From contig JAIQDT010000172.1 of the NCBI GenBank assembly GCA_021521415.1, positions 806,001 through 870,000 on the forward strand: a stretch of 64,000 nucleotides of DNA, in the 5' to 3' direction. Each line of letters opens with the position of its first letter. Within the stretch, counting starts at the first letter, position 1. A model generated the notes under the pieces. That model searched no databases. It worked only from the letters and a program-made list of their open reading frames with translations, and was not told where the DNA came from. Source of the stretch: Bidens hawaiensis. Its lineage: Eukaryota; Streptophyta; Magnoliopsida; Asterales; Asteraceae. A program made the translations under genes and the position numbers. Of the stretch, positions 23,861 to 51,200 are shown piece after piece.

Positions 23861-23862
23861 AG

Positions 23863-23874: not shown

Positions 23875-24334
23875 TTTCGGGGCTCAAATTACACTTGATT
23901 TGGGTGTTTAGACAGTTAATTAGTCGTATTTATTGTTAGTGTTCTGTTTGGGTGAATTTGGATCAATTTAAGGTTAATTGAGTGAATTATGGACGAATTG
24001 GATTGGATTTGAGTTGATAAAGATATTGGTAAAGTATTGTGAGTTGGAATTGAGAATTGGATTGGTTTTGAGTTGATTTGGTATTGGTTTTGGTTTGTGG
24101 CCGAAACAGGGTTGTGTTTTGGTATAAATGATCTGGTAATTGGGGTTAATTGGTTACGAGTCTGGTTGATTTAGACTCACGATTAGTTTGCGAATAGTTT
24201 GGTAGTCTATTTGTGCAGTTTGGTTGAGATTTGAGGGAGTATTACGCATTTAAGTATTCTGGGTTTCTGGTTTTTTGTGTTCTTCATTTCCAGAAAATCT
24301 GGAAATCTTCTTTGAAAATTTGAAGATGAACATG

Positions 24335-24925
24335 ATTCGCTATCATCTTGATGTTGATTAGTTATCTTGTTCACTTTGATTCGTTCATTAATTTAGTCGA
24401 TCGTTATAAATTTCAAGTAATTCGCTAACCGGTTCGCTACATTTTTGATTCATGTTACCTAATTCGTTATTTGGGTTAATAGATTCGTGTGACATGCGTC
24501 TACTTTGGGATTTGTGTCATAACAACCTTTTCCACGTGACATAAGGTGTTAGAGTTTGTTACAAACCGTTGTAACAACCTGATTCGTTATAGTTGATTCG
24601 CTATCAACTGTAGCTGGTTGGTTATCTATTTCGCTAAGTTTTTCTTAGCGATTCGTTACTGAAAACCTTCTAATTCGTCAAGATTTCTCTTATCAATTCG
24701 CTAGCTAATTCGTTAGTCAATTTGTTAGTTTGATTTATTGTTAAATCTGATTCGTTGACTTTCTGATTCGTTAAACTCAATCTTGATTTGCTATCTGATC
24801 AATCTTAGCTTCGTTAAGATTTGATTCGTTAATATACTGTTCACACTTCGCTACAACCGTTTACAGTTCGTTACATTTACCATTCGTTAATCTTATTCCC
24901 TATTTGATTCGTTACACCTTTGAAT
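24335..24925 (+). repeat. TTCGCTA/TTCGTTA keyword array in the SIRE-A leader
   Basis: More than a dozen copies of GATTCGTTA, ATTCGCTA, TTCGTTAC and close variants within 600 bp, ending some 20 bp before the gag ATG. They are the words that form the LTR hairpin arms; in the leader they are mainly in one orientation. The leader between 23875 and 24334 is otherwise TTGG-rich with no clear signal. Confidence 0.8.
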
Positions 24926-30255: not shown

Positions 30256-30662
30256 TGTTGGTGCATGATGTCAGTAGTTCAGTGTCTAGTGTCTGTAATC
30301 GCGTTTGTAATATTTTATGTTTTGTATAAGCGAAGTTGCTAACAAGTTCGCTGATATGGGCGAACTTGTTAGACAAGCAAAGTTAGTGACAACTTCTCCT
30401 GAACATGCCAGGCGAAGTTGTCGTGATTATATAAGCCATCTGTTACGGCTTATTAATTAATCATTCATTCAGTTTTCGTGTATTCGAGTCAGAGAGAGTC
30501 TGTAATCAAGTGATCTTCGTATCACGTGTTTAAGGTTGGTATACAACGTGTTTGATTATCGTGTGTTAATCGTATTGTTTTCTATACTCGTAACGTCTTA
30601 CGTAGGGATTCCGCACCTGCGTAGTACGTGATATCTCGTGTAGATCCGGCTGGGAACCTACA
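30256..30662 (+). repeat. 5' LTR of SIRE-C (407 bp)
   Basis: TGTTGGTGCATGATG to AACCTACA. CTAACAAGTTCGC (30339-30351) and GCGAACTTGTTAG (30360-30372) form 13-bp perfect arms with an 8-nt spacer, upstream of TATATAA (30428-30434). Two of the differences from the 3' LTR destroy keyword copies here (GCAAAGTT and AACTTCTC instead of GCGAAGTT and AACTTCGC). Confidence 0.96.
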
Positions 30663-30664
30663 AT

Positions 30665-30676
30665 TGGTATCAGAGC
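30665..30676 (+). promoter_or_regulatory. tRNA-Met primer-binding site of SIRE-C
   Basis: TGGTATCAGAGC two bases after the LTR end. Confidence 0.95.
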
Positions 30677-30861
30677 TTTTGCTCGATTGTGTGGTTCGGG
30701 ATTATCACGCGGGTATAGAAATCGTTCCGTTTGACTATTCGCGGGACGAGTTTTCTGAGTTTTTGTGTCATACTCATCTCCTACAAGCTTAAACTACCCG
30801 TAACACCTTCACAAACCTCGAAAAACCCAGAAATCTAATCTGCAGAAAGTTCATGTTCATC

Positions 30862-31114
30862 AGGCGAAGTTGCCGTCACTGTAAGTAGGGTTTCGGCGAA
30901 GATATAAGGTTAAGCGAAGTTATCCACAACTTCGCCTACCTCTTCAAGTTCGCTTATCTTAAGCGAAGTTACCCTCAACTTCGCCTACCTCCCAAGTTCG
31001 CTCAACTTAAGCGAAGTTATTCTCAAGTTCGCCAATCCAGCGAATTTAAGAAAGTGAGCGACGTTACAAATTCACGCGAAGTTAAGCTTTAAGCGAAGTT
31101 ATCCACAACTTCGC
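30862..31114 (+). repeat. GCGAAGTT/AACTTCGC array in the SIRE-C leader
   Basis: Nine perfect copies of the 8-mer (both orientations) in about 250 bp, plus AAGTTCGC variants. Three are paired as GCGAAGTT-N6-AACTTCGC: 30914-30935, 30963-30984 and 31093-31114, with spacers ATCCAC, ACCCTC and ATCCAC. The array ends 60 bp before the gag ATG. Confidence 0.92.
30881..30886 (+). promoter_or_regulatory. Candidate 5' splice site in the SIRE-C leader
   Basis: CACT|GTAAGTAGGG: GTAAGT matches the plant donor consensus. It lies upstream of gag, so splicing to the acceptor at 39198 would remove gag-pol and leave ORF3. Predicted from sequence only. Confidence 0.45.
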
Positions 31115-31173
31115 CAACAGTGCTGTTTGAAAATAAAATTTTTATTTTCGGATTTCTTTGAGTTTAGAGAAAG

Positions 31174-33777
31174 ATGTCTTCGATAAACATTACTGAACTA
31201 GTAAAGATGGAAGTAGAAGCAGGTTCAGCTACAAAGGCACCCAAGATGCTTAAGAAAACGGATTATGTAGCGTGGAAAGATCGTTTTGAACAATATGTCA
31301 AGTATCAAGATGCCAAGATGTGGGTGTGTATACAAGATGGTTACATTCCACCTACTACTGAGTATGAAGGTCGTGATCAGATCAAGAAGTACAAAGAGAT
31401 GGAAGATGAAGAGAAGAAGATGTATGAGGCAGAAAGTAAAGCTCATGCAGCAATTACAATGGCTCTTCCACAAGAGATACTTCACACCTTCCGAAAGTAT
31501 AAGACTGCTAGAGAGCTTTGGGAAGCTCTTGAAAACCGTTTTGAGGGCAATGTGGGAATTCGTGCTTCGAAGATTAAACTTCTAAAAACCCAATTCTCGG
31601 TCTTCAAGTATCTGAAAAACGAATCACTTGATGATATCATCACCAGATATTATCATCTGATGACTGAACTCAGCAACTATTCAATCGCATACAAAGAAGA
31701 TGAGATTGTTGAGAAGCTTCTTGATGCTCTCCCACCAAAATGGGAGATGTATACAGTGTTGATGAGAGAAGATAAAGACTTTGCTGACTATGACCTTGAG
31801 ACAGCAGTTAACAAGCTAAGAACGTTTGAACTGAACATGGTACGAAAGGAAACACCTACCGATCAGGTTCAAGATCCGGGTATGTATGGGGCAAAGGTTA
31901 ACTCAGGATCAAGTTCGAAAACGGAATCATCTGCTTATTACTCTAAGGGAGAGTCAGGCGCGAGCTCAACACATGAGGGACACGTATCTCTCAACATGAA
32001 CGGTGATGTGTGCTATGTAGCTGGAGGGTCAAATGCTTCTCAACCTCAAGCGAACAAGAGTAGTTATTCCCCGAGTGTTTCAAACAACAACTACTCGAAG
32101 ATGCCCATGAGTGTCAAATCTGTTGAACAGCAGTTTGCTCTCTATGCATCTTTTATTGCTTCTTTTGAGAACTACATTCAGGGTAAGATCGTTGATCCTG
32201 CAGTTTTCGATGAAGACTATGACCAGATCGATGCTGATGATCTGGAGGAGATGGATCTGCAGTGGCAGATGGCTATGATAGTGAGAAGGGTAAAGAGGTT
32301 CATGAAGAAGACTGGCAGGAAGTTTGTCGGAGAGAGGCCAGGGTTTGATAAGTCTAAGGTTCGCTGCTACAACTGTCAGCAGAATGGCCACTTTGCAAAA
32401 GAATGCAAGAATGAACGTGTAGAACGCAGTCAGAATAGATCTACACAGCAAAGTGGTAGTGGTAATGACTATAGAGCCATGATTTCCAGACATAATGAAG
32501 AGTACAACTGGAATCTGCATGTTGAAGAAGTATTTGAACAGGCCAACTTGGCAAACATCGAAAATGCAGATAGTGTGAAGGGAACTGGCGAAAATGAAGC
32601 GTACATGGCAGATGTAGCAGACCAACTCTCCGAGGTAAGTACCGAACTCCCTTGTACTAAGTGTGAACTTCTGTCTGAACAACAGACAACTCTAACTGAT
32701 CAGTTTGTTAGTTTGGATGCGCAATATAAAACTTTAAAAGAAGATCATCATTTCACTAAAGCTAGAGAAAATAGTTACAAAGTAAAAATTAAAGCTAGTG
32801 AAACAGATATTAAAAGTCTTAAAGCAAAGCTTGCTGAAAAAATTAACATGATTGATCTTAGCTATGAAGTTCTAGAAGAGAAAACCAAACTAATAGCTGA
32901 GAGGGAAAAACAGATAGCTGATCACCAGGTAAAAGTGGTGGAACTTAACAGGAAACTTGAACAATTCAGAAATTCCTCCGCTATACTTGATCACCTCGTT
33001 AGTGATCAAGGGTCTCCAAAAAGGGGAGGAATTGGTTATCATGAAGTTCCACCACCTTTCAATCATAATTACACTTTTAACCCTAGTAATCAGAAATCTG
33101 TCGATGTTGACTATGGTCAGACAGTTCCAGTTCCAGTTAGTGCTAAAAAACCAGAAGTTAGTAAGCCTGTTGCAAGTGTTAAAATTTCTGCTCCGAGTCC
33201 TGTCTCATCTAACTCGGACAAGTCTTCTGAGTCGTGTGACACAAAACAAGAGGAAGTATTACCAAAAAATGGAGAGAAAAATAAAACACCTGAAAAGAAG
33301 CCTCCACTAAACCCGTATGTCCCACCTTATGTGAGACAAATGGGCAGTAATACTGCCTCAACATCTAAGACAACTTTTGATAAGAAAGTTGAAAACAGGA
33401 GTTGTTTCAGATGTAACCAATTAGGACACCTTGTTGCTGATTGCCCTCTGAAGCAGAAATTCAGAGGAGTGAGGCCTTCAAAATCTGAGAAAAGAGCTAA
33501 CGGTAATCGATTTAATGGTAAAAATGAAAACCCATTAAAATTCAGAAATTGGTCTAATCCAGGTTTTCAAAGAAATAGATCTCAGTTTTTCACTGCAAAC
33601 AACCAAACCATAAGTAATAATTCATTTAATTCAAGACGGGTTAAGTGGCCTCATAGATAATCCACAAGAAGGTATCCTGTTAGGACTCACAGAAATGATT
33701 ATAATACTAACTTTGGACAGCCAAGGTACGGGATGTATCGACCCAAGACCAAGAGGTCTTGGGTCCCAAGATTCTAA
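31174..33777 (+). pseudogene. gag: Gag of SIRE-C, one premature stop near its end
   Basis: ATG at 31174. Copia gag domain: KKTDYVAWKDRFEQYVKYQD, TMALPQEILHTFRKYKTARELWEALENRFEG, SLDDIITRYYHLMTELSNY, LLDALPPKWEMY. First CCHC knuckle CYNCQQNGHFAKEC near residue 398, second CFRCNQLGHLVADC near 744. Between them is an acidic segment and a coiled coil (LKAKLAEKINMIDLSYEVLEEKTKLIAEREKQI). TAA at 33658-33660 is probably premature, since the frame continues with Arg/Asn-rich sequence to the typical copia gag end KRSWVPRF and two tandem TAA codons (33775-33780). Without the first TAA the protein would be about 867 residues, long for copia gag but normal for Sirevirus. Confidence 0.88.
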
Positions 33778-33780
33778 TAA

Positions 33781-36700
33781 TCTGCTTTAATCGTGCAGGA
33801 ACAGTTGAACAGGGCTGCCAACAATCAATGGGTTGTGGATAGCGGCTGTTCCCGGCACATGACGGGTAACAAGAAATTGTTACAAGACTGGAAACCTGTT
33901 CAAGGTGGTAGAGTGAGTTTCGCAGGAGAGAGCGGTGGAAAGATCACAGGAATTGGGACCGTGACTAACGGGAAGATGACGCTAGAGAAAGTTAACTTTG
34001 TTGAAGAACTGAAGCACAATCTGCTGAGTGTTTCGTAGATTTGTGATAAGGATTATACCGTGCATTTCACGAAGAATGAGGCGATAGTGTTGTATCCTGG
34101 TTTCAAGATACCAGAGGACTGGATTGTTATGAAGGCTCCGAGAGTGAAGAATACGTATATCATGGATATGAGGTCTACTGAAATGGCCACTGAAGAATCG
34201 TGTCTTTTGTAGAAAGCGACTGAATCAGAGTCCGAATTATGGCATAGGAGAATGGGGCACATTCATCTTCGTAAGATGAACTACCTTGTCAAAAATGGGC
34301 TTGTGTTAGGGGTTCCCTTGAAGAATTTCAACTTCGAAGACAAATGCTTATCATGTAAGAAGGGAAACAAACACAAGAAATCCCATCTCACCAAGAAGGT
34401 CAATTCAATTGTCAGTACCCTAGAATTACTTCACATGGATCTCTTCGGTCCCGCGAATGTAAAAAGTCTAGGAGGAACATCGTACTGCTTGGTGATTACT
34501 GATGATTTTTCTCGATACTCGTGGGTATATTTCCTGAAGTCGAAGGATGAAACTGTTCAGATGGTAATAAATTTGATTACCAAAGTTGAGAACATTATGG
34601 GAAAAAGAGTTAAATATATCAGGAGTGACAATGGGACTGAGTTCATGAACTATCAGATGGAGATCTTCTGCCTACAGAAGGAGATTGAACACCAATACAG
34701 CGCACCGTATACTCCGCAACAAAATGGAGTGGCTGAGAGGAAGAACAGAACTTTGATTGAAGGAGCCAGAACCATGCTGGCTGATTCGAAACTTCCCGTG
34801 GTGTTCTGGGCTGAAGCTGTTGCTACAGCCTGTTATATCCTTAATAGAGTGTTAACTGTTAAAAGATTAAATAAAACCTGCTATGAACTAATGCATGGGA
34901 GAAAACCCAACTTGAGTGGTCTTGAACCATTCGGGTCCCCGTGTTCGATATTAAAGACCAATTCAAAATTTGGTGGAGTAGCCGACGAAGGAATCTTAGT
35001 TGGATACGTTGTTGGGACTCCCAACAGACGGGTCTTTAATACATCGACCAGCAAGGTTGAGGTGGTATGTAACACTGATATCACAAGTTACAAATCACCA
35101 AAACCAAGCACGGGACCCGCTGGGGTTTTCGACTATGATAGACTCTATAAATCTTTTAACATACCTTATCTAGATTTTGCAGAAGCTGAGGAAAGAATTG
35201 CTACGAAGATGATATGCGATGAGGAAGACACTTTGGTGCAAAGACCACAGTATGATGAATGTCAGCCTTCCTCGTCAAATACTGTCAATACCCCTACTGC
35301 CTCTACTGAAGAGGAATTCATCAATCCGTTTCATTCTCAACATCAATCAACCATGGATGAGCTATCTTCGAACTTGGAAGATAATCTAAATGTCAGTTCG
35401 GTTCCGACTACGAGAATTCACAAAGATCATCCTTTGGAGAACGTGATAGGTGATCTGTCCGCCGGTGTACAAACAAGAAAAAGCTTGAATGAGCACACCT
35501 GTGTTTACACAAGCATTAAAGACACGGGCATTATCAACGAATGCTTGTACACCTGCTTCATCAGCCAGATTGAACCAAAGAACTATCAAATGGCTCTTAA
35601 GGACAGCTCGTGGGTCGAAGCCATGCAAGAAGAGTTAGCTCAGTTTAAGAAAATGGAAGTATGGAATCTGGTTGAAAAACCGAAGAATGTGCATGCGATA
35701 GGCACTAAATGGGTCTTCAAATGTAAGAGAGATAAGAAAGGGGTTGTTATCAGGAATAAGGCGAGGCTGGTTGTTAAAGGCTTTAATCAACAAGAGGGGA
35801 TTGATTACAATGAAGTATTTGCTCCTGTGGCAAGATTGGAAGCCATTCGGCTGTTTTTGGCATTTGCTGCTCATAAGGAGATGAAAGTTTTTCAGTTGGA
35901 TGTGAAGAGCGCGTTCCTAAACGGTAAAGTTGACGAGGTTGTGTATGTTGAGCAACCTCCGAGTTTTCCTGACCCTGACTTTCCTGATCACGTGTACAAG
36001 CTAAGTAAAGCGCTGTATGGACTACATCAGGCACCTCGTGCCTGGTACTCAACGTTATCCGATTACTTGCTTGAGAATGAGTTTGAAAGAGGTAAGATTG
36101 ATAGCACGTTGTTCTTCAAGAGAAAAGGAAGCGACTTCCTACTGGTGCAAGTCTACGTAGACGACATTATCTTTGATGCATCAAAGGTCGCCATGTGTCA
36201 GGAGTTTGAGGCCGTCATGAAGAAGAGATTTGAAATGAGTGCTATGGGTGAACTAACTTTCTTTTTAGGATTGCAGGTTGATCTGAAGAAAGACGGGATG
36301 TTCATTCATCAGACGAAGTATGTCCATGATGTTCTCAAACGCTTCAAGATGGAGGACAGCACTCCATATGATACTCCAGTCTGCGTCAATCACAAATTGG
36401 GTGCTGATTCAGACAACGATGCAGACGTGGACCCAACCCAATATCGGGCTATTATAGGTTCTTTAATGTACTTAACTGCTTCTAGGCCTGATATAATGTT
36501 TGCTGTTTGTCTTTGTGCACGATTTCAGGCAAACCCAAAAGAATCTCATTTGAAGGGTGCGAAGAGGATACTGCGTTATCTCAAGGGCAAACCGAAGCTG
36601 GGGTTGTGGTACCCGAGAGAAGGAGACTTCGAGCTAGTCGCTTACACAGATTCTGATTATGGAGGGTGCAATCAGAGTCGGAAGTCTACAACTGGTGGAT

Positions 36701-37101
36701 GTCAGTTTCTTGGTGGTAGATTGGTGTCGTGGCAATGCAAGAAGCAGACTTCAGTCGCAATTTCAACCTGTGAAGCAGAATACATGGCAGCATCCAACTG
36801 CTGCTCCCAGGTTCTTTGGATTCAACAACAGTTGCGCGACTATGGTCTGAATTTCTCACTTACTCCTATTTGCATTGATAACACAGCTGCTATCTCAGTA
36901 ACTAACAATCCCGTGAAGCACAGTAAAACTAAACATATAGACATACGTCATCATTTTATACGGGATTGTGCTGAGAAGAAGCTGATTGAGCTCGAAAAGG
37001 TTGATACGTTAGATAATTTCGCTGACTTATTAACGAAAGCGTTTGACAAAACTAGATTTCAAAACCTTGTTGAGCTGAATGGGATGATCAATCCAGAGTA
37101 A
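33781..37101 (+). pseudogene. pol: Pol of SIRE-C: protease, integrase, RT, RNase H (two stops)
   Basis: In frame with gag. Protease WVVDSGCSRHMTG; TAG at 34036-34038 and TAG at 34210-34212; GAG-pre-integrase LWHRRMGHIHLRKMNYL; integrase with LLHMDLFGPANV, YIRSDNGTEF and PQQNGVAERKNRT; RT with [12 protein letters not shown] and YVDD at 36153-36164; RNase H with YTDSDYGGCNQSRKST, AISTCEAEYMAAS and HSKTKHIDIRHHFI, ending at TAA after GMINPE. From 34252 on the frame is open for 949 codons with all catalytic residues in place. The stops therefore hit only the protease to pre-integrase stretch. Confidence 0.93.
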
Positions 37102-37117
37102 CCATGCTTTGTGTTTT

Positions 37118-37123
<6 letters not shown>

Positions 37124-37152
<29 letters not shown>
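37124..37152 (+). repeat. 29-bp poly(A) tract after SIRE-C pol
   Basis: A pure A run 22 bp after the pol stop. SIRE-A has a 10-base G run (43912-43921) at the equivalent place. No target duplication or TE end is visible next to it, so it is internal simple sequence or an old recombination scar. Confidence 0.9.
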
Positions 37153-37154
<2 letters not shown>

Positions 37155-37160
37155 GTCACT

Positions 37161-37445
37161 ATCGCTTAGAACTATGTCAGTTGCCTCAGTTTGAAGGACA
37201 TGTCTTAGGATATGTTTGGTCCTCATTTCTATTTGTAGAATATGAGGATAGCCATTAACCAGATGACTGAAAGTGACCGGGGCGGTTTATGATGAGTTTT
37301 CATTCTTTCGCTGAAAATTAGTCGATCATACTTAGTTAGAAGGACACATACTAGTATGTGGTCGGTCCAGCTGATCCATTGAATCTTCGGGATAGCCGTT
37401 AACTTGAAGACTTTGATCTGGTCGGGGCGATAGAAGTTAAATTTT
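37161..37445 (+). ncRNA. Tandem hairpin dimer between pol and ORF3 of SIRE-C (candidate RNA structure)
   Basis: Two units of about 147 bp. Each has CGCT..A, then GAAGGACA, a short stem-loop, GGTCC, GGATAGCC(A/G)TTAAC and GGGGCG in that order. Hairpin 1 is ACATGTC-TTAG-GATATGT (37198-37215); hairpin 2 is the perfect palindrome CACATACTAGTATGTG (37345-37360). SIRE-A has the same pair at 44229-44520 with different bases in the stems but pairing retained. That points to a cis-acting RNA element in the transcript rather than an independent gene; function unknown. Confidence 0.6.
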
Positions 37446-38463
37446 TCTTTTCGGGAGATGAAATTATTTTTCAAGTCTACTACTTCGTAAGAAGTTACTT
37501 TACTATGTTTAACAGAAAATTGATCCAACCTTGGAAAGTGATAGATATACTGATTCTGTATGCTTAACTAGTGAAGTTATTAGGCTTAAAAGTCTTTAGA
37601 ACAGTCATTGTATGTCATGGTAGCTTTTTATGGTGCGTAAAAGTAGAAGTGATACTAACTAAATCTACTCGATTTTTTGTGGAAACTCCTTAAGAGTTGT
37701 GCATGTCTTCATACATATCTTTCCGAATGATAGGCAGAAAATCGATTACCCAGTCATACACGAGCCCGTGAGTGTTCTGATTCCCGTGAAGATAGAGTGT
37801 CAAGACGCTGCAGTGATCCAGATTCGGGACTTGCAGTTATTTTCTTCTTGAAGTTGTGTATATACGTGTTAATAATAAAAAATAATAATAATAATAATAT
37901 TTTCTAGAGTTCATAATGATAATGATTATCAATCAAGACACAAGAAGGTGAACGGGAAACAGAGTCTAAGATCGAAGAGTAATTACTACTTAATCAGACA
38001 CTACGGGTTGAGGTCAATTCGGGGTGACTTGGGGAAAATCAAATACGCCTTGAGAATAGATAGGAGGCATTATAATCTCTGAGTTGTTGCCCACTTAAGT
38101 TTTGAGCTTAATTGAACCTAACTCGTATCACAGAAACGATGAAAACCATTTTAAGTATATTACCTGTTTACAACCAGTTTCTTTATGTCATAATACAGCT
38201 GAACACGGATCTGTGTGACAGTCACGAAATTAGTATGATTCCTGTTCGGATCTTTTCCAAAACATGGTAGTCCCTGTCGAGACTGAAATTTGATCCCGTG
38301 TACTTTAATTTTTCAAATTTTTGTTACTTTTGTAATTGTTTGATTTTATACCTGGTTACTTGGTCTTGATCGTTTCATTTAACACTTTAAAGGATGTTTT
38401 AAAACCTAATTGTAAATTGTTCAAATTATGGGGTTTGTTTTGAAAAATTTTAATATCAGCGAA
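37446..38463 (+). other. Conserved non-coding region of SIRE-C between pol and ORF3
   Basis: No ORF. Scattered blocks match SIRE-A 44521-45410 in the same order: CAGTCATAC, TCAATTCGGGGTGACTTG versus TCAAGTTGGGGTGATTTG, TTGAACC..A..TCATATCAC, and GTCATAATA..GCTGAA. Conservation in non-coding DNA between diverged families suggests a cis function. An (AAT)n run lies at 37872-37900. Confidence 0.55.
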
Positions 38464-39146
38464 GTTCTGCATAACTTTGCCTGATAGGCGAAGTTATCCA
38501 CAACTTCGCCGGTACATCTGCGGCCCTATATAAAGAAGCTTTAAAGTCAAACAGTATCAATATTTCAAATTCACAGCGAACTTATCTTTCTAAACCTAGG
38601 CGAACTTATCGATCATAATCCATCGATCTTCTGTGTTCATTCTTTTCCGATTCTAATCCGATTATAGGTGTGTAGGGTTCTAATATCATTGTTTTTGAGG
38701 TTAATCATCGGTCGTTTCGACTCGATTATTGACCTCGTCTTTCGACCATTATCACCTGATTTTCATACTTACTTTCACGTGATAGTAAACATATTAATCG
38801 TCCAAATCGACTCAAAATCAAGTGTTAACTGGCCAAAATCTTCAAAATTGTCCAAATTGATTCGATTCAACAGCCTTCACTGTCGCCGTTTCGAATTCGG
38901 CGAAGTTACAGTTTAGGCGAAGTTATCCGTAACTTCGCGTAAGGTCTAACTTCGCCTGATAATTACTTTTTAAACAGTTTAGGAGGCGATGTTGTGGTTA
39001 GGCGAAGTTCTCATTAACTTCGCCTGGATCATTTTACTTAACTATTATCAGACGAAGTTCAAGTTGAAGCGAAGTTGTTTCCCAACTTCGCCTCACCTTT
39101 AACTTCGCTTATACAGAATTGATCACAACTTCGCTCATGGTAACAT
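38464..39146 (+). repeat. GCGAAGTT/AACTTCGC array upstream of SIRE-C ORF3
   Basis: About 13 perfect 8-mers in both orientations plus GCGAACTT variants. Pairs with a 6-bp spacer occur at about 38489-38510 (ATCCAC), 38917-38938 (ATCCGT) and near 39002-39024 (CTCATT); one pair has a 7-bp spacer. It is the second array of the same keyword in this element and ends about 55 bp before the ORF3 ATG. Confidence 0.92.
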
Positions 39147-39174
39147 GCGAACTTGTGATTCGCTTTGATGTTTA

Positions 39175-39198
39175 TCTAACTTAACCTGTTTGTTGCAG
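39175..39198 (+). promoter_or_regulatory. Candidate branch point and 3' splice site before SIRE-C ORF3
   Basis: TCTAAC (39175-39180) resembles a branch point, followed by TTAACCTGTTTGTTGCAG ending at 39198; the ORF3 ATG begins three bases later. The arrangement suits a spliced ORF3 mRNA, with the donor at 30881. Confidence 0.5.
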
Positions 39199-39200
39199 AT

Positions 39201-42092
39201 ATGGCTGCTGTTGCTGGAGCAGGTGGTGCAGGCGGTGATGACGGAGGTGATCAACAAAGACAGTTCTTCCCGGGTCACAACATGTACATAACTTTAGACC
39301 CGGAAGCGAGCGGAGTTGATGATTTCCGCAAAATCATCACATTTCTTTTACGGTCAAGGATATTCCACGCCATTACAACAACTCTGCCGATATCCTTACC
39401 CAACATTGAGGATTTCTGGCAGACCGTGGAATACGACTGTAGAGTCGAACCCCCGGTGATGTGCGCAACCGTCAACAATCATATTGTTCAGTTCTCTTCT
39501 GAACATATCCGAGCGGCTCTGCGGTTTGGAAACGAGACAAGGGATGACCCGACGGAGTTTGTAGCTCCTTTCCGCGATGGGGCATTTTTGAGGATGGGTT
39601 ATTCTGGTCCCTTAGGGGATTCGCAGAGAAGGAAGGGATTTCTGCTTGACCAGTGGCGCTTTCTCATGCATGTTATGATAGTATGCATGTCAGGGAGAAA
39701 GGCGGGCACTGATGGCATGGGCGCGACCATGCAGTCAGCGATGACTGCTCTGACATACAACAAGCGATTCAGCTTTAGTCAGATGGTTTTTTACGAGATT
39801 GATCATCAACGAAGAGCGATGGCGCGTGAGAGGTTCATCATGTATCCAAGATTCCTTCAAATGATCTTGAATCATGTTGCTCCAACACTTCCTCAGCGCC
39901 GTCCGATCCGATATGTAGAGAGCGTGAACAAACGGATCTTCGCCCAGTGTCGATCCTCCAGTGTGAGGAGCAAACCTGAGCTTCGTCCTCGCCATACTCC
40001 ACTCTTTGGGTACTTAATCAACCCGGGGTATGTGCCTGCTCGTGGGGATGAGTTTAGGGACCCGGCACCACAACAGGCAGGAGCACCTCAAGCTATACCT
40101 GCTGCTCCTGTTGTGTCACCGGAGGAGAACGTGGACCTTGATGCAGAATTTGGTGGTCAAGGCTTCTTTGATATGGATTGGGTGGATCCAGAGGAGAACG
40201 TTCAGGTCCCTGTTGAACGTGCCTCGACTGTGCATGTTACTAGGGCAGCTACAACGGTGGCTGGCTCAGATTCTGATGATGAAGTGGCAGAGGCGAGAAG
40301 GATTATGGTGACTCGAGAAAGACTACATGGGAAAAGAAAGAGAACAGATGATGATGACGAGTCAGACTTTGAGGAAGAGGTACAACAGTTGATAAGAAGG
40401 TCAAGAAGGGAACGGATAGGTGCAGGATCAGGAGCCGGTGAAAGCTCTAGGGTGGTACGTTTCACTCCACCAGCACTATCCGGTATGACAATGGTTCCCT
40501 CATCCCTACAGGTTACAAGGCCAAGCGCTACGGGTGTTCCCGTGGTGGCTACCTCATCTACATTTGGCCTTCCACCCACTACTTTCCAACTTTCGGCTCC
40601 CGTGATCGTTTCGTTGCCGCCTCCGACTGTTACTCCATCGGAGGTCGTGGCACGCTTTATTGAGTCGACTGTTGTGGCCACTGCAGGGCTATCGGTGACG
40701 ATACCACCTGCGGTTACGTCTATTTCTACTTCTGAGGTCCCGGTGACATTGGAAATCCCTCCTCAGTACACTCAAGACATTTCACATATGAGGTTCGATT
40801 TCGATGCAACCCTCTCAGACTCAGAACGAATAGCTGCACTTGAACGGGTCGTGGCAGAACAATCAAGGGTGAATCTTATCCAGACCCAGGCTATTCAACG
40901 CCTAGTTGCAGGGAATCAGATGCAGTCGTCCCTGCTGGTAGAACATGGAAAGATCATAGATGCTCTGAAGGAGTTCTTGGCATCTCAGGGGGAGACGAGC
41001 TGTAAAGGCGACGAGTTGAGGACCAAGAGAAGGAATGATAGAGACGATGATCCCAATGCGTCGAAAGATGCAGGTGGTGAGCTACCAAGAACTACTCAAG
41101 CTCTTGGAACTTCCACAACTCAGGGGGAGTCGACATCTGCAGCTGGTGGTGATGATGTGGTGGTGGTGGACGTAGAGGAGATGGATGATGTTTTGGTTGG
41201 TGATGATGATGTACTAACAAGTGATGTGATAGAGAAGATTGGAGAAGATATTGTGATTGATACAGAGATAGAAGAGGGAGAGATAGTAGAAGAGAATGTG
41301 GAGCATGAGATACCAGATGTTGAGAAAGCAGGTTTGAGTGAACAGATTGGAAGCGATGAGTCTGAATGGGAAGAGCAGCCTAGATGGAAGGAAGGCTATG
41401 CTCAGTGGTTCGTCAAAACGAAGAAACCGGCGGTCCCTACAATGTTTAAGAAGAGTTACAACATTAAAGGCTATGCTGAAGCGAAGAAAGGGATTATATG
41501 CTGGATCTATGATGAGCAGTTGAGGCTCTTCGTGATTAAAACGTATAACGGTGTTCAGTATTTTAAAAGAATGTTAAGATCGTTGAATACACTGCCGGAA
41601 TGTAAAGTGAAAGACTTAGCCAGATTGGGGTTAATCAATCGAAGTGATGATAATATGGCTAGAGTCATTGGGAAAATTGTATGGAAAGAGAGTATAAAAG
41701 AGAAGAAGTTTGAGCTGTTGAAGCCACAAAAGGGAAAACTTGTTGAAGACAAGGATAGAGGTTTGAGAGCTGATGGAAAGCCTTGGATGATTATGAAGTA
41801 TAAACCGATCCGGTGTTTGAAAGAAGTACCGATGAAGCTTATGCCCAAGGATGTGCTTAAAGACCTAAAGTGGTGGTTTGTAGATTGTGAGACAGCTGAG
41901 GCGGTGATGGAAGATGAGGATGAACAAGAGGTGCTAAGAGTTTACGATCCGATGCATTTGGTAAACTTATCGCAAGCTGATCTGCAGGTGCTCAATGAGA
42001 AAAAAATCTTTTATATTCCTGCTTGGAAAGACGAAGCGAGGAAATATCAAAGAGTTGTGTCGGTTTGTGTTAGAGAAGGAGTGCATGCGTGA
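39201..42092 (+). CDS. ORF3 of SIRE-C, 963-residue protein of unknown function, intact
   Basis: The longest uninterrupted frame in the window. N-terminal globular domain (about 20-250): LLRSRIFHAITTTLPISLPNIEDFWQTVEYD, HIRAALRFGNETRDDPTEF, LLDQWRFLMHVMIVCMSGRKAG, MTALTYNKRFSFSQMVFYEI, FIMYPRFLQMIL. Then a Pro/Thr/Ser-rich and acidic middle with a basic patch (GKRKRTDDDDESDFEEEVQQLIRRSRRER), a predicted coiled coil (about 530-590), a very acidic stretch, and a C-terminal domain with EGYAQWFVKTKKPAVP, GIICWIYDEQLRLFVIKTYNGVQYF and VYDPMHLVNLSQADL. No signal peptide, membrane helix or enzyme motif seen. SIRE-A (48224) and SIRE-B (59889) carry homologues. The basic patch and coil would suit a dimeric nuclear, DNA- or RNA-binding protein; that is inference. 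Confidence 0.85.
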   Translation: MAAVAGAGGAGGDDGGDQQRQFFPGHNMYITLDPEASGVDDFRKIITFLLRSRIFHAITTTLPISLPNIEDFWQTVEYDCRVEPPVMCATVNNHIVQFSSEHIRAALRFGNETRDDPTEFVAPFRDGAFLRMGYSGPLGDSQRRKGFLLDQWRFLMHVMIVCMSGRKAGTDGMGATMQSAMTALTYNKRFSFSQMVFYEIDHQRRAMARERFIMYPRFLQMILNHVAPTLPQRRPIRYVESVNKRIFAQCRSSSVRSKPELRPRHTPLFGYLINPGYVPARGDEFRDPAPQQAGAPQAIPAAPVVSPEENVDLDAEFGGQGFFDMDWVDPEENVQVPVERASTVHVTRAATTVAGSDSDDEVAEARRIMVTRERLHGKRKRTDDDDESDFEEEVQQLIRRSRRERIGAGSGAGESSRVVRFTPPALSGMTMVPSSLQVTRPSATGVPVVATSSTFGLPPTTFQLSAPVIVSLPPPTVTPSEVVARFIESTVVATAGLSVTIPPAVTSISTSEVPVTLEIPPQYTQDISHMRFDFDATLSDSERIAALERVVAEQSRVNLIQTQAIQRLVAGNQMQSSLLVEHGKIIDALKEFLASQGETSCKGDELRTKRRNDRDDDPNASKDAGGELPRTTQALGTSTTQGESTSAAGGDDVVVVDVEEMDDVLVGDDDVLTSDVIEKIGEDIVIDTEIEEGEIVEENVEHEIPDVEKAGLSEQIGSDESEWEEQPRWKEGYAQWFVKTKKPAVPTMFKKSYNIKGYAEAKKGIICWIYDEQLRLFVIKTYNGVQYFKRMLRSLNTLPECKVKDLARLGLINRSDDNMARVIGKIVWKESIKEKKFELLKPQKGKLVEDKDRGLRADGKPWMIMKYKPIRCLKEVPMKLMPKDVLKDLKWWFVDCETAEAVMEDEDEQEVLRVYDPMHLVNLSQADLQVLNEKKIFYIPAWKDEARKYQRVVSVCVREGVHA

Positions 42093-42150
42093 AGATACAA
42101 GATTGAAGATTACAAGACACGTGTTTGAAGCTAAAGAGATGAAGCTACTG

Positions 42151-42163
42151 CCAAGGGGGAGTC
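42151..42163 (+). promoter_or_regulatory. Polypurine tract of SIRE-C
   Basis: CCAAGGGGGAGTC immediately before the 3' LTR. Confidence 0.88.
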
Positions 42164-42570
42164 TGTTGGTGCATGATGTCAGTAGTTCAGTGTCTAGTGT
42201 CTGTAATCGCGTTTGTAATATTTTATGTTTTGTATAAGCGAAGTTGCTAACAAGTTCGTTGATATGGGCGAACTTGTTAGACAAGCGAAGTTAGTTACAA
42301 CTTCGCCTGAACATGCCAGGCGAAGTTGTCATGATTATATAAGCCATCTGTTACGGCTTATTAGTTAATCATTCATTCAGTTTTCGTGTATTCGAGTCAG
42401 AGAGAGTCTGTAATCAAGTGATCTTCGTATCACGTGTTTAAGGTTGGTATACAACGTGTTTGATTATCGTGTGTTAATCGTATTGTTTTCTATACTCGTA
42501 ACGTCTTACGTAGGGATTCCGCACCTGCGTAGTACGTGATATCTCGTGTAGATCCGGCTGGGAACCTACA
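42164..42570 (+). repeat. 3' LTR of SIRE-C (407 bp)
   Basis: Same length as the 5' copy with about six substitutions. Here the keyword pair GCGAAGTT-AGTTAC-AACTTCGC is intact. TATATAA at 42336-42342. Confidence 0.96.
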
Positions 42571-45774: not shown

Positions 45775-46981
45775 TGTTGAGTCAAAGATTTGACCAAAAT
45801 GAAGTATATGGAAGATTGGAATCTTCTCAACCTCCTCAGAATTTGCTAAGTATGGATCCGGGCACACCTTAGACCTCCGAGCAAGCTTTTACTTAACTGG
45901 GTACGATATTTTGTCTATCGGACAAGGTTATCTTCAAATATTCTTCTTTAGTTGATATCCGAGCAGGGTTTGCAAATTAGTGCATTGTCGGGCAAGGTTC
46001 ACTAGTTTATGTAAATCCGGGCAAGGTTCACTTTGTCAAGCAAGTCTGTTCTTCAAAGCCAAGTAAAGTTCACTCCCAAGTAAGCTTTTGGCTAACCAAG
46101 CTCATGAAGCCCAGTGATTGGAAAACCGGGCAAGGTATTCATTAATAATAGTGGTCCGAACAAGCTTGATGATTGAAATGGAATATCACTAAGTAACATC
46201 GGGCAAGGTTCAACTCAAGAAAGGAACAGTACTTCCGAGTACACTTTGCTAATAAGTTATTTTATATCAAGGAGTTGAAATGGACCATTGAAGAACATGG
46301 TTGCTCGTAAGGGTTTGTAGGGCAAAGTCTGGCAAAATCAAGAAGATTGAAGTCTACCCGGTGAGTATTTTACTTGGTAAAATACTCTTCAAGTAAAGTC
46401 TACCCGGAAACTGATCCCGGGCACACTTCTATGTTACCAAGTTGTGAAGGATGGCAGAGTACACAACGTACTCGGAAAATGAAAACTGATGCAAAGCCTA
46501 CCCGGAAGACTTGTTTTACACTTAGAATATTTTCTGATTATGTAAATTGAATATGTATTTTCGTTTGGGGTTTCTTGAAGGAATGACAGCTGTCCTAGGG
46601 TGGCAGGCCTATAAATAGAATGTTTTAGGGCACGCTGCCTAAGGACAAGACAGAGAGCGACACATTAACTAAAATAGAATATTTTGTGTGACGTTGTCCT
46701 AGAATACGTACCGAAAAACCCTTCTTCAAGAAACTCCAAATCGATTATCCAGTTTGTATGATTGATATTATATAAATGGAAATCTTTTGAGTGAATCTTG
46801 TTTCTGTTGGTTACGTTTGAATACTGATTGAGCAACCGTATGTTTGTTATTGATTCCGCCTTTAACAAATAGTTATCTTTCTAAATATAGCAACCCGTCA
46901 TTAACTCTCTTGTCGACACATTTATTTGTGTGAGTTATGACATGATTAAGTAAGATCCAGCTGAAATCAAGGAACCTGACA
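45775..46981 (+). repeat. SIRE-B solo LTR (1207 bp)
   Basis: TGTTGAGTCAAAG to CCTGACA, flanked by the perfect duplication ATTAC (45770-45774 and 46982-46986) with no PBS or internal sequence, so it formed by LTR-LTR recombination after insertion. Homologous to 14776-15989. The CGGGCAAGG words and the TATA box (TATAAATAG, from 46610) are conserved. Confidence 0.94.
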
Positions 46982-46986
46982 ATTAC

Positions 46987-48010
46987 TTTCTAGTTTGCTC
47001 TTTTATTTCTCTTCCGCACTCTGTAACGAACCACTCTTATTTTGTTATACATATGTAACGAATCAAGACACGATACATGTCTTGTTCGCTACTCTGATGT
47101 AACGAATTGGAATAACGAATTGCCTGATTCATTATTTAAAATTCAAACGAATCTCTTGATTCGTCCAACGAGTACATCCGGTAGCGTGTAAAGCTATATA
47201 AGACAAGGTACACGAACAGTCCTTCACTATCACCTAAAGTCACCTTTTTCAAATTTTTTCTCTGATTTTCGACCTTCGAATTTCGACTTTTCAAAACTAT
47301 CATTGTATTACTCAGGTATAGACGATCACATCTTTGTGATTTTCGTCAAAAATGATGTTGCATTGATAGACTAATTATGTACTTTTGTGTTCTAAGGGTT
47401 TTCCGAGTTCAAAACCCCTGATTTATTTATGATATATGGTGTTTATATAGTTGATGTATAGTCATTTGTGATCGGAATGCGATTCCGATACCCTTGGTAG
47501 ACTTTAATCGAAGTATGATTCTTGTTTGCCGGGTCGATTGAGGGTTTATGGGTTCGGGGTTTTTTTTATACTCTGTTAACCTAAGTTATCTCTTGGTCTT
47601 GAGCCTCAATCTCAATATCATGTGTTTGGTAATATTTTTTTGAGATCACTACACATAATGTTTCGGTTATCCGAAGATAGTTATGGTTTAATTGAAGCTT
47701 GATTTGTGTTGTTGACTTTCGGTGTTCATATTAATTTTGACTTTGACTGTGTGAGTCAAAGATCAAGTCTAATTATTGGCCATTCGTTAACTTTAGCGAA
47801 CTGGAACTGCTTCGTGTCCACTTCGTTAAAGATACATACGATTTAGCTCAGCGAATCATTTTATCAGCGAATCAAATGAGGATTCGTTAGAATTGAAACG
47901 AACGGGGATTTAGTTCGTTAATATTTATAATTAATTCGCTTAGTCTAATTCGTTAACTTATTTACATGATAGCGAATCACTTGATTCGTTACAGATTGGT
48001 AAGGAATCAA
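46987..48010 (+). repeat. TTCGTTA/TAACGAA keyword array upstream of SIRE-A ORF3
   Basis: Dispersed copies of TAACGAAT, GATTCGTTA, TAGCGAAC, CAGCGAATC and ATTCGCTT on both strands, densest at 47030-47165 and 47780-48000. Same words as in the LTR and leader. It lies 200 bp to 1.2 kb before the ORF3 ATG. Confidence 0.8.
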
Positions 48011-48204: not shown

Positions 48205-48219
48205 GTTTAATTTATTCAG
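48205..48219 (+). promoter_or_regulatory. Candidate 3' splice site before SIRE-A ORF3
   Basis: GTTTAATTTATTCAG ends at 48219, four bases before the ORF3 ATG at 48224. Same placement as in SIRE-C. I did not find an equally good donor in this leader. Confidence 0.45.
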
Positions 48220-48223: not shown

Positions 48224-51200
48224 ATGGCTGATCAATTGAATCAAGATCCACTGATTGCTGATCAAGGACATCAAGAACAACCACCACATGAACAACCACC
48301 TCCAGCACATCAGGAAGCAGTTATTTTATTACCTTATGACACAAAACACAACATCTGTGCTTATGTTGATCAAGATGTTGCTGATATTGCTGTGTTCGGT
48401 GATATGTTAGCATTCTTAAGATGCTCAACGATACATTATGCAATCACTTCCAGGCCTAAAGTTTATTTAAGTATTATTAGGCAGTTCTGGAATACCGCTG
48501 AGGTTGTTGAGGTGGAGAATCACATTCGAGCCACGATCAATCAGACTGTTATTACAATTAATGTGGACGTGATTCATCGTGTACTTCGTTTTGATGACAA
48601 TGATGACAATCCAAGTGAATTTGACAAGCAACTGATCACGGGTTTGTTTAATCATCAATGTTACGGTGGTGGTATTGATGATTCTATGTTGAACAAGAAT
48701 GGGTTATGCCCACCATACAAGTATCTTCTCCATGTTTTGATTCATTGTATGAGTGGTCGTCGTGGTGGGTTTGACCAATGCAGAAGTAGTATACAATCGG
48801 CCTTTGTTGCACTTATACTCAACAAGCCATTTAACTATTCCAAGCTGGTTTTCGATCATCTGAAAGAGCAAGTTCAACAAACGACTCAGTCGAAGAAGTT
48901 CTTAATGTATCCTCGATTCTTGCAATTGCTAATTCAAGACTTGATGCCAAACCTGGTTATTGATCGAACTTTGGTGAACGATGTGCTTCCTTTGGAACAC
49001 ATGAAGGCTGACACTATATTTCGAATGATGATTTACCGTAAGGAGAGACCACAAGACAAGTGCATGATTGGTCATATAATTAATGCGAAATATGTCTGTC
49101 CTCCTAATGAACGTTGGATCCACGATGACTCGGATTCTGAGCGTGAAGGGGGAGAAGGTGGGAACGATGATGATGGTCATGATGATGGAGATGGTGGAAA
49201 TGGTGGTAATGGTGATGCAGCTCTTAGAGAGCAACACGAGGTAGTAAATGTTGCGTTAGCTGCCACTATTGCAGCCAAACAAGAAGGGAAGAGAAAAGGG
49301 AAAGCTGTGGCAACTGGAGAGCCATCAAAGAAACGACGTGTCAGCTGGGGCTTGGGTAATTATTGGTGTGCCACCACCTCGCCAATCAACGCCTCAACGC
49401 TCGATAGTGTAGCCTAGATGCTTACATTGACAACAATGTTGGTGTCTCATGAAAGGCTTGGTTTAATTCCACAAATGGCTTTATCTGAAATACCAAGGCC
49501 TCCTGCTACACTGTCTACTGTATCTCCAACGCCATCCATGAGGCCTACTCCTCCTCCTCCCAATGATGTCTCTTTCATGAGAATCACTCGGCCTCAAGGA
49601 CCGATCCAACCTGTTCATCCATCCCTGTAAACCTTGCCACCGAACCGTCAGACTGATATGCTGTTGAATCTTCTTCATCTTTATGAGAATTAGATGTCTG
49701 CTGACCGTCAGAATCAGGAACATCTTATGGAGAATCAAAGACGGATGATGAGTTATATTTCTTTTTGTCAAAAAGAGACTAAAGCGTTGCGTGCCATTGT
49801 TGAGTCTCAGGGGGTGAAAATGGAGGAACAAGAGGAGTTAATCTTGCAGTTGACTTGCAAAGAAGATGCCTTAAAGAAACTCAAGAATGATGATCAAGAT
49901 CCTAACGAGTCTGGTGCAGGAGGTGAGCCTAAACAAGCGCACGGTTCATCTTCGGGTGCTGGTACGAGTGAAGGTGGTGACTTAGATAAACAAATCATTG
50001 TTCATTAAGATTACACAGAGGCTAAACCTTTGGATAGAATTGAAGCTGACACGGTAATTTTTATTGATGGTTCTGGAGTTGTGAAGAGTATGGTGAATAG
50101 GGATGAGATCGAGGCTGGTGAGTTCGTTGATAGGTCTCTGACACAGGAGCAGATCTCTATTCTGCTCGGGTTAAATGATGAATAGTTGACTGTGTTAGAG
50201 ACTGAGCCTGATGTCGAGGTGGTGAATGAGGAAGGTATAGAAGATGATCCATCTATTCAAATGAATACGGATTTTATTTATGAAGACGAGGAAGTTGAGA
50301 TGGAAGATGTCACTGCTGATGAGTATCCTGACCTGTATCAACACACAAACGTTGATCAAGGTGCTCCAGTATTTAATGAAGAAACGGTTAAAGAAGCAGA
50401 AGATCATCTTGAGGAAAAATCCAAAGGCAAGAGGAAAGTTTATCCCGATTCACTTCTCGACACATCTCTTGAGGAGATTCAAAGTTGGTTCAGATTTAAA
50501 GCTGCGGGTAAGATTATCCAGGCATATCGTTATGTTAATAAAGAACGAAAAGACACAACTGCAGCGTGGGTCAAAGAAAACCAAGTGACTTCCTTCAAAG
50601 TTGTATCCAAGGTTCATGGTGATATCGTCTCATGGATGTATGATTCCGAGCTTAAGGTATGTATAGTAAAATGGGAAAAGGGAATCCAGTACTATGAAAC
50701 GATAATGGGCGTTCTTACATTACCGCGTTGGGATGTGCGTACCCTCTAGAGGCGTCCATTTATCAATCGTAGTGGCGATCGGACAGCTGAATGGTTTTAT
50801 CAACACTTGCTGTTCGAGGTAAATCATGGGTTCAAGTTCTTCAAGCCCCAGGTCCCGAGACGTAAACGTATTGAAGAGATTGATCCAAGGACTGGCTGGA
50901 GGAAACTTGTTCTTAAAGTAAAGCCGCCGAAGATGATGAAGCAAGTGCCGGTGAAGACGATGCCCCAACACATGCATCTCTCGTTCAATCGCTGGTACTA
51001 TGACAATCGTACTGGCGAGGCCGTCATTGTACTTGGTAAAGGACTGAAGACAGAGCTTATCAAGAAAATCGACCCGATGTGGTTGGTTAATTTGTCTGAA
51101 ACAGACAATGATGTGCTACACAGGAGACAGATTCTGATCGAGCGCAATGAAGACTACAACCTGGCTATGCAATTTCAGCGCTTTGTGCGTGTTTGTCATG

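Follow-up and report, generated by a model that had tools for sequence, protein, structure and literature searches.

A 64,000-nucleotide stretch of the genome of Bidens hawaiensis (Asteraceae), positions 806,001 to 870,000 of contig JAIQDT010000172.1 and hereafter called the window, holds three nested long terminal repeat (LTR) retrotransposons. The Sirevirus SIRE-C (Ty1/copia) lies within a second Sirevirus, SIRE-A, which in turn lies within a minus-strand Athila element (Ty3/gypsy), and each of the three is closed by its own target-site duplication (TSD). All three carry a third open reading frame (ORF3) after pol and repeat a short, element-specific word, here called the keyword, in the LTR and/or leader and again upstream of ORF3. 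A sequence-only reading of the window had proposed that each ORF3 protein recognizes the keyword of its own element and acts in anti-silencing, transcription, or RNA packaging. Here, we describe the placement, conservation, and lineage distribution of the keywords, and argue that they are probably cis-regulatory boxes serving two promoters of the same element, one in the LTR and one upstream of ORF3. Genome-wide counts cover the assembly of 3,474,515,312 bases in 15,902 contigs.

The LTR pairs are 98.3% (SIRE-C), 95.8% (SIRE-A), and 95.7% (Athila) identical over their aligned parts. At the junction between the 5′ LTR and the primer-binding site (PBS), SIRE-C reads ATTGGTATCAGAGC, which corresponds to the Sirevirus form CA/ATTGG/TATCAGAGC, and SIRE-A reads AGTGGTATCAGAGC, a variant on record in Bousios et al. 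2010 (PMC2829016) that falls within CA/(A)TTGG/TATCAGAGC. The polypurine tract of SIRE-C is the Sirevirus AGGGGGAG, yet TC precedes TG where the Sirevirus attachment site has AT/TG; in SIRE-A, the tract is GAGGGGGTG versus AGGGGGAG. SIRE-C encodes RVT_2, rve, and zf-CCHC domains. The Athila 3′ LTR (12456–12899) aligns to only the last ~440 bp of the 5′ LTR (52388–53570), having seemingly lost its U3 part, and the keyword array of the Athila LTR is therefore visible in the 5′ LTR alone; the TSD AGATT is present at both ends. The features of the window are collected in Table 1.

Table 1. Elements, genes, keyword arrays, and candidate promoter features, numbered from the first letter of the window.
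Feature	Position	Strand	Remarks
SIRE-C, Sirevirus (Ty1/copia)	30256–42570	+	407-bp LTRs 30256–30662 and 42164–42570; TSD AGTGG
SIRE-C LTR keyword cluster	30330–30419	.	4 half-sites upstream of LTR TATA at 30427 (7/10)
SIRE-C gag-leader array	30864–31114	.	12 half-sites including dyads
SIRE-C gag	31174–33660	+	Retrotran_gag_2, zf-CCHC; open
SIRE-C pol (integrase, reverse transcriptase)	34252–37101	+	Open
SIRE-C ORF3-upstream keyword cluster	38459–38509	.	3 half-sites, including 22-mer GCGAAGTTATCCACAACTTCGC
SIRE-C candidate ORF3 TATA	38526–38535	+	10/10 versus published Sirevirus LTR TATA consensus
SIRE-C candidate ORF3 5′ untranslated region (UTR) intron (predicted)	38668–39198	+	Donor TAG/GTGTGT (cut at the slash), acceptor TTGTTGCAG
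SIRE-C ORF3-leader keyword array	38900–39134	.	Keyword identity 0.93
SIRE-C ORF3	39201–42092	+	963 aa, open; N-domain about aa 26–280; KRKR at 378, resembling a nuclear localization signal (NLS)
SIRE-A, Sirevirus	23324–51825	+	LTRs 23324–23860 and 51285–51825; TSD AACCC; interrupted by SIRE-C and a solo LTR
SIRE-A LTR keyword cluster	23418–23594	.	9 half-sites upstream of TATA at 23605 (10/10)
SIRE-A gag-leader array	24336–24914	+	21/21 TTCG half-sites sense
SIRE-A ORF3-upstream cluster	47024–47119	.	5 half-sites; partial TTCG half-sites on to 47166
SIRE-A candidate ORF3 TATA	47194–47203	+	8/10; about 80 bp past last full keyword
SIRE-A ORF3-leader array	47783–47991	.	Acceptor-like AG at 48218–48219
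SIRE-A ORF3, N-terminal piece	48224–49417	+	397 codons open, then stops
Athila (Ty3/gypsy)	12464–53570	-	5′ LTR 52395–53570; 3′ LTR remnant ~12464–12899; TSD AGATT; interrupted by SIRE-A
Athila 5′ LTR array	53206–53350	.	ACCGTGG; palindrome ACCGTGGCCCACGGT
Athila ORF3-upstream array	17231–17425	.	Exact counts and shuffles
Athila ORF3 fragment	16114–17016	-	PF20167 match; first in-frame Met at codon 37

Keyword Arrays Surround Two Gene Starts

Exact counts in the window place the SIRE-C word GCGAAGTT and its complement at 30330–31107, 38459–39127, and 42238–42320, with one stray at 27726. The SIRE-A words TTCGCTA and TTCGTTA and their complements occur at 23418–24908, 47024–47985, and 51379–51617 (strays at 6952, 12241, 14843, 37031, 44354, 45730, 45764, 53418, and 55475), and the Athila word ACCGTGG and its complement at 17238–17407 and 53206–53342 (strays at 2570, 18997, and 39423). 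Enrichment was measured against 300 dinucleotide shuffles per region on both strands, with two variants for each SIRE word and four 7-mers for Athila. For SIRE-C, observed/expected counts were 4/0.02 in the 5′ LTR, 12/0.12 in the leader, 16/0.13 in the linker between pol and ORF3, and 5/0.02 in the 3′ LTR; the corresponding values for SIRE-A were 10/0.30, 17/0.45, 13/0.61 (upstream of ORF3), and 10/0.24, and those for Athila 7/0.18 in the 5′ LTR and 10/0.22 upstream of ORF3. The words are absent from the coding DNA of their own elements: 0/0.22 in gag-pol and 0/0.12 in ORF3 of SIRE-C, 0/0.78 in the gag-pol part and 0/0.41 in ORF3 of SIRE-A, and 0/1.21 in Athila pol. In a look-elsewhere control, comparing the commonest 8-mer with 60 Markov resamples, SIRE-C (24 versus a resample maximum of 8) and SIRE-A (18 versus 8) passed, and Athila did not (8-mer 7 versus 10; 7-mer 14 versus 14), so that the Athila array claim rests on the dinucleotide-shuffle counts.

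The arrays are genuine, lie where they had been described, and exceed chance, and they occupy the non-coding pieces around two gene starts. The sequence-only reading had described element-specific arrays at these places; the exact counts agree for SIRE-C and SIRE-A, whose enrichment survives both controls, while the Athila array stands in both places against dinucleotide shuffles, with its LTR part confined to the 5′ LTR, and falls short in the look-elsewhere control. Its statement that the words differ between elements also holds, inasmuch as they are lineage-specific and the words of the other elements number at most 1–2 per array region.

The half-sites have the cores GCGAA/TTCGC in SIRE-C and TTCGY in SIRE-A, and some are arranged as dyads. 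The SIRE-C dyad, GCGAASTT-n6-AASTTCGC, occurs nine times in the window with a spacer of fixed length and variable sequence, and the SIRE-A LTR dyad reads TTCGYTA-n8-TARCGAA. The 22-mer GCGAAGTTATCCACAACTTCGC is identical at 30914 and 31093 in the gag leader and at 38488 in the ORF3-upstream cluster, embedded in unrelated flanks, which suggests that the spacer is under selection or that the arrays have undergone conversion with one another. Unlike the LTR dyads, the SIRE-A gag leader (24336–24914) is sense-only, with 21 TTCG and 0 CGAA, and a second A-type gag leader (region L045, reverse strand, about 7420–7990) has 22 and 0; the bias in the SIRE-A leader retains P of about 0.0015 after base composition and is partly T-richness. 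The ratio of observed to expected CpG is 1.13–1.51 in the SIRE array regions versus 0.56–0.75 in the SIRE coding parts. Across the genome, the C-type dyad GCGAAGTTN{0,30}AACTTCGC has 148,255 matches, overlapping starts counted, versus 15 for the reversed control, and the A-type dyad with a spacer of 8 has 11,307 versus 4. The words are private to a lineage, not to a copy.

A Candidate Internal Promoter Upstream of ORF3

Reading toward the SIRE-C ORF3, one encounters a keyword cluster, a TATA, a second keyword array, a splice-acceptor-like AG, and the ATG. The candidate TATA is the sole string scoring at least 8/10 in the 2,099-bp linker. Each of the four Sirevirus units has keywords both before the chosen TATA and between that TATA and the ATG: gag (4 + 12) and ORF3 (3 + 13) of SIRE-C, and gag (9 + 18) and ORF3 (5 + 8) of SIRE-A. 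In the SIRE-C ORF3 unit and the SIRE-A LTR, no more than 50 bp separate the last keyword from a downstream TATA of at least 8/10; the TATA of the SIRE-C LTR scores 7/10.

Nine further SIRE-C-type copies were taken from contig C1, picked by their layout of dyad matches. Four of the 13 regions fetched (L018–L021) had no ORF3 match and were left out of the ORF3 comparison, L018 and L019 being taken as LTR/leader parts. The nine copies have ORF3 N-domains 85–97% identical to that of SIRE-C, and all nine show a TATA of 8–10/10 after the first keyword cluster and an ORF3 start of the form [CT]AG + 2 nt + ATGG. Mean pairwise column identity among the ten C-type sequences is 0.93 in the keywords, 0.91 in the TATA, 0.83 in the acceptor stretch, and 0.64 in the rest of the upstream region. 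The donor GT (38668) and acceptor AG (39197) of the predicted intron are invariant in 10/10; seven further GTs and five further AGs are likewise invariant. The SIRE-C ORF3 TATA is a candidate for the internal promoter that Bousios et al. 2010 proposed and could not conclusively identify.

The other lineages share parts of this anatomy. In SIRE-A, the candidate TATA lies less than 50 bp from the partial half-site at 47160, and two more 8/10 strings occur near the ATG, at 48156 and 48158. The two-cluster layout is retained in 4/4 A-type copies, three of which (the window, L024, and L044) have the TATA string TATATAAGACAA. The single D-type copy, L030, has an array at −1876 to −508, a 7/10 TATA at −383, and the start CAG-AT-ATGG, as in SIRE-C.

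Keyword and ORF3 Lineage Change Together

ORF3-type proteins were sought by tblastn in 240 kb not picked by word (L022–L045). Four A-type ORF3s (L022, L023, L026, and L043), one D-type (L030), and one broken E-type (L045) were found; there was no C-type ORF3 in the 240 kb and no Athila-type ORF3 among the best tblastn hits there. L022, which is N-terminally cut, was excluded, its upstream region being gone, and the E-type fragment was too broken for word assignment. Hits of P0052 and P0053 in L025, L026, L030, L036, and L044 were set aside as copia pol, P0052 by its source name and P0053 by its reverse transcriptase domain. The 15 upstream regions counted, about 0.9–2 kb each, are the window's two, the nine word-picked C copies, and the finds from the 240 kb.

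The ten C-type regions contain 14–23 C-words and zero A or D words, the four A-type regions 13–21 A-words and zero C or D words (10 and 11 in neighboring blocks for L043/L044), and the D-type region 15 D-words and zero A or C words. The D-word, YCGRGYAA, occurs 15 times in sense and 0 in antisense, against an expected 0.08 and a maximum of 1 in 100 resamples; exact D-type 8-mers, with 6 copies, are not above the resample maximum of 8. TTCG is contained in the A and C words and begins 10/15 D-words. With N-domains only 32% (C–A), 30% (A–D), and 30% (C–D) identical, the word switches with ORF3 lineage in 15/15 regions of three Sirevirus lineages, each region holding its own word only; the comparison spans three lineages, of which C was picked by word and D is a single copy with a degenerate word defined after inspection. 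Because gag and the LTR belong to the same lineages, the co-switch does not single out ORF3 as the reader.

Features of the ORF3 Proteins

The Athila ORF3 matches PF20167 (Transposase_32) with E = 1e-14 and 55.3 bits, above the curated cut-off of 45 bits, and the SIRE-A ORF3 matches it below the cut-off (E = 1.1e-7, 32.3 bits). The SIRE-C ORF3 has no direct PF20167 match; its N-domain is 32% identical to that of SIRE-A, and its C-terminal region is conserved in relatives. At E up to 1, PF20167 is matched by 18/28 SIRE-type and 21/28 Athila-type proteins. BLASTP aligns the SIRE-A and Athila ORF3s at 21% identity (E = 7e-4), and a BLASTP-type comparison of SIRE-C with Athila gave nothing significant. 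As the profile–profile comparison of SIRE-type with Athila-type ORF3 by hhalign yields probabilities of only 20% and 6%, their homology rests mainly on the shared PF20167 matches. The Athila ORF3 is apparently cut by a copia LTR piece (14776–about 16110), a relative of which lies inside the SIRE-A linker.

A maximum 19-residue Kyte–Doolittle value of 1.6 is the threshold for a membrane stretch. None of 18 SIRE-type proteins (two from the window and 16 among the 54 relatives found) contains such a stretch, with maxima of at most 1.51. Of 16 Athila-type proteins (one from the window, at 1.33, and 15 among 27 relatives), 3 exceed 1.6. A transmembrane segment is expected of a retroviral envelope, and the SIRE-type proteins scanned lack one. 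NLS-like patches are present in 16/18 SIRE-type proteins, where shuffles give 0.2–1.2 per protein (SIRE-C, 1 versus 0.9). A nuclear role for SIRE-type ORF3 is plausible, since a transmembrane stretch is missing and NLS-like patches are frequent. DUF1985 and DUF287, the VANC domains, are not listed in the Pfam tables of 28 SIRE-type proteins (25 most-matched families), 28 Athila-type proteins, and 18 A-type proteins. NCBIfam gave 0 matches for the window's three ORF3s, a PDB sequence search with ORF3 profiles had a best E of 0.042, and scans of viral contigs with the SIRE-C ORF3, SIRE-C pol, and Athila ORF3 found no relatives.

Comparison with Known Systems

Bousios et al. 2010 (PMC2829016) described element-specific, palindromic repeat boxes in 13 Sireviruses, in the LTR upstream of the TATA, together with CpG islands and the LTR TATA. 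Boxes were present in the linker of 9/9 Sireviruses with the envelope-like gene (ENV) and 0/4 without it, and 77/79 linker copies precede ENV; the four ENV-less elements, OPIE-2, PREM-2, Osr8, and Tnd-1, carry 8–9 boxes in the LTR. The keywords described here resemble these boxes in being element-specific, CpG-rich, and present in many copies before the LTR TATA and before the ENV-like ORF. They differ in their core, TTCG/CGAA here versus CGG–CCG in 12/13 published elements (Tnd-1 is also an exception), and in occupying the gag leader, for which no mention was met in the accessible part of that paper. Unlike the published boxes, those of the window are accompanied by a visible TATA and an intron-like ORF3 leader, and the D-type array has a single orientation and is not palindromic.

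VANC21 reads same-orientation motif arrays in VANDAL21 (Hosaka et al. 2017, PMC5735166), and the likeness lies in short, family-specific words, dense in non-coding DNA and distinct among the families of a single genome, and an element-encoded accessory protein. VANDAL is a DNA transposon, whereas the elements considered here are LTR retrotransposons, in which VANC domains were not found; the half-sites all point one way in the SIRE-A leader and the D-type array, whereas SIRE-C has fixed-spacing dyads. The Grande gene23 (Gomez-Orte et al. 2013, via PMC7264820 and PMC11963269) is likewise an accessory gene between pol and the 3′ LTR and encodes a nuclear protein, but it is antisense, whereas ORF3 is sense. 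The sunflower Athila aORF(+) (PMC11728184) shares PF20167 with the Athila-type ORF3 and is predicted to be nuclear; in the accessible text of that study, ‘palindrom’ and ‘SIRE’ have 0 occurrences, and it includes neither word arrays nor a Sirevirus link. A 2026 sunflower paper asks, citing VANC, whether ORFs of LTR elements modulate methylation. Published work thus anticipates the layout and the analogy with VANC as well. New here are the anatomy of the promoter, the words of TTCG type, and the coupled change of word and ORF3, none of which was found in a search of the open-licence literature.

Function of the Keywords

The architecture is real and mostly known already, and its best-supported function is the cis-regulation of two promoters of the same element, to which we assign a probability of roughly 0.6. 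In this model, the LTR promoter would drive gag-pol and the genomic RNA, and the internal promoter ORF3. Both units would be ordered alike, with a keyword cluster, a TATA, a transcribed leader bearing a second keyword array, and an ATG; the SIRE-C ORF3 leader would resemble a 5′ UTR intron ending at the ATG. A DNA-binding protein, encoded by the host or the element, may read the word and co-activate both promoters. What we observe directly is that the words are enriched and placed around the two starts, that SIRE-C-type copies conserve the keywords, the TATA, and the AG, and that word and ORF3 switch together; use of the ORF3 TATA, splicing of the intron, and the protein reader are what we infer. 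A promoter role fits best because LTR arrays occur without ORF3, whereas linker arrays are present or absent together with it (9/9 versus 0/4, PMC2829016), and the Grande accessory gene, transcribed from its own promoter, offers an analogy.

Several points weigh against this reading. ORF3 RNA could arise without an internal promoter, by splicing from the LTR leader in the way reported for Bagy2 and predicted for Athila (PMC2829016). Conservation and layout of the C-type keywords are partly ascertained, because the nine copies were picked by dyad layout, and homogenization of repeats can mimic selection on them. TATA-like strings of at least 8/10 occur in 28% of 50-bp windows of the AT-rich SIRE-A LTR, and 7.6% of 10-nt windows upstream of ORF3 attain at least the column identity of the TATA. 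A strong splice donor was looked for and not seen in the SIRE-A ORF3 leader; the TATA is absent from one of the four A-type copies (L026) and the AG before the ATG from another (L023), and no TATA match was found upstream of the Athila ORF3.

The reader at both promoters might be ORF3 itself. As a PF20167-type and possibly nuclear protein, it would bind the word of its own lineage and activate or de-silence the family in the manner of VANC, a proposal that is compatible with two promoters and would supply the identity of the reader, and that we consider possible but less likely than not. It stays alive because the word follows the ORF3 lineage in 15/15 regions with no cross-presence, bearing out the expectation of the sequence-only reading that keyword and N-domain change together. 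TTCG recurs in A, C, and 10/15 D words, as if one protein family had drifted in specificity; none of 18 SIRE-type proteins has a transmembrane stretch and 16 have NLS-like patches; VANC-like same-orientation arrays occur in the SIRE-A leader and upstream of the D-type ORF3; and the 2026 sunflower paper reports CG methylation to be strongly reduced in the inner part of SIRE elements. Nonetheless, it ranks below the two-promoter reading, because LTR arrays are kept in ORF3-less Sireviruses, the VANC domains are missing from the Pfam tables of ORF3 relatives, and CpG decay reveals no protection of keywords. Between LTR copies, 2/16 keyword CpGs and 6/41 others differ (P = 1, in small numbers), so that this small test shows no signature of unmethylated keywords. 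Moreover, 7/16 ENV elements of Table 2 of Bousios et al. have no box in their Table 3 by our count (PMC2829016), some proteins, that of SIRE-C included, have NLS-like patches in about the number that shuffles give, and the co-switch involves three lineages, with C picked by word, D a single copy with a post hoc word (8-mers 6 versus 8), and ORF3 confounded with gag and LTR. The sequence-only reading is thus supported in part: the predicted co-switch holds in the lineages compared and a nuclear role is plausible, whereas neither VANC domains nor CpG protection was seen, and arrays in related elements that lack ORF3, which it had named as a refutation, are on record in the LTRs of the four ENV-less elements. 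Its term ‘private’ for ORF3 is inexact, since SIRE-A and Athila match the same family, PF20167.

Alternatively, the arrays could work within the genomic RNA, forming hairpins or presenting single-stranded motifs that Gag or host factors would recognize in packaging, export, or translation; we regard this as rather unlikely. The array segments do fold better than shuffles (z = −5.9, −5.3, −8.5, −5.0, and −6.1; LTR U3s −6.2, −8.4, and −5.3) relative to 35 control windows (mean −0.84, minimum −5.84, next −3.21), keywords are more paired than their surroundings in 4/5 arrays computed, and the two A-type leaders are sense-only (21/21 and 22/22). However, inverted words in DNA yield such z-scores regardless of function, T-richness accounts for part of the sense bias, a keyword-free stretch of the SIRE-A leader has z = −3.0, and folding is weak (−2.3 and −3.6) in the clusters that immediately precede the ORF3 TATA. 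Nor is there a common shape: keywords are unpaired at 0.50 versus 0.38 for their surroundings in the SIRE-A gag leader, which folds well (−5.3) though its words are looser, and at 0.12 versus 0.48 in the SIRE-C leader. A hairpin role common to every array finds no support, as the SIRE-A gag leader stands apart from the remaining four. Rfam gave 0 matches at the gathering threshold, and an RNA role does not predict keywords upstream of both TATA boxes. Passive spread, by which functionless words would multiply through slippage or conversion between arrays, is improbable. The identical 22-mers at 30914, 31093, and 38488 and a roughly 16-bp tandem run of C-words in L045 favor it, but the flanks of the 22-mers differ, spacer length is fixed while spacer sequence varies, coding DNA is avoided, and the layout is kept in 9/9 chosen C-type and 4/4 A-type copies. 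Least probable of all is that the boxes are a signature of host silencing, palindromic small-RNA hotspots whose primary function lies elsewhere: maize Sirevirus palindromes are such hotspots (Bousios 2016, as cited), but this is a consequence, and it explains neither the conservation of boxes above their surroundings nor the linker boxes that track ORF3.

The two-promoter reading bears on old questions, the function and expression of the plant retrotransposon ‘envelope-like’ gene, which a conserved candidate promoter and intron make directly testable. The lineage-matched change of word and ORF3 likewise turns the speculation on anti-silencing into a concrete A/C/D swap test within one genome with very many copies. 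It is conceivable, if far from assured, that Sirevirus and perhaps Athila ORF3s are lineage-drifted nuclear regulators that read their own TTCG-type word at the LTR and internal promoters, in a positive autoregulation or anti-silencing orthogonal to co-resident families. They would then be an LTR-retrotransposon counterpart of VANC, and the plant ‘envelope’ gene would be explained.

Other Observations

Several neighboring sequences carry words of their own. A copia LTR is present in three copies (14776–15990, 45775–46982, and 58600–59713), one of them followed by a PBS, with a mild same-orientation word, GGGCAAG/CCGGGCA, upstream of the TATA. This word resembles the D-type ORF3 word of L030, and the three LTRs contain 4, 5, and 2 sense D-word copies; as the family carries its own word, these solo LTRs are unusable as a clean ORF3-free control. 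An LTR in L031 that may belong to the D-type element has 2 D-words, equal to the resample maximum of 2. On the reverse strand of L045, the broken E-type ORF3 fragment (2178–2405 and 2796–3430) has four TTCGGTC-type sites upstream, possibly a further word, and the roughly 16-bp tandem run of C-type half-sites, nearly all in one orientation, lies at 6607–6868, near an A-type leader array. L020 (C1:266400–269500) and L021 (C1:1185500–1187800) have C-type dyads, several with 5-nt spacers, and no ORF3 match in the 3.1 and 2.3 kb fetched. Finally, the window holds two local tandem repeats, 10973–11363 and 57311–57518, with spacings of about 66 and 70 bp, and a folding control window in the former folds as well as the arrays.

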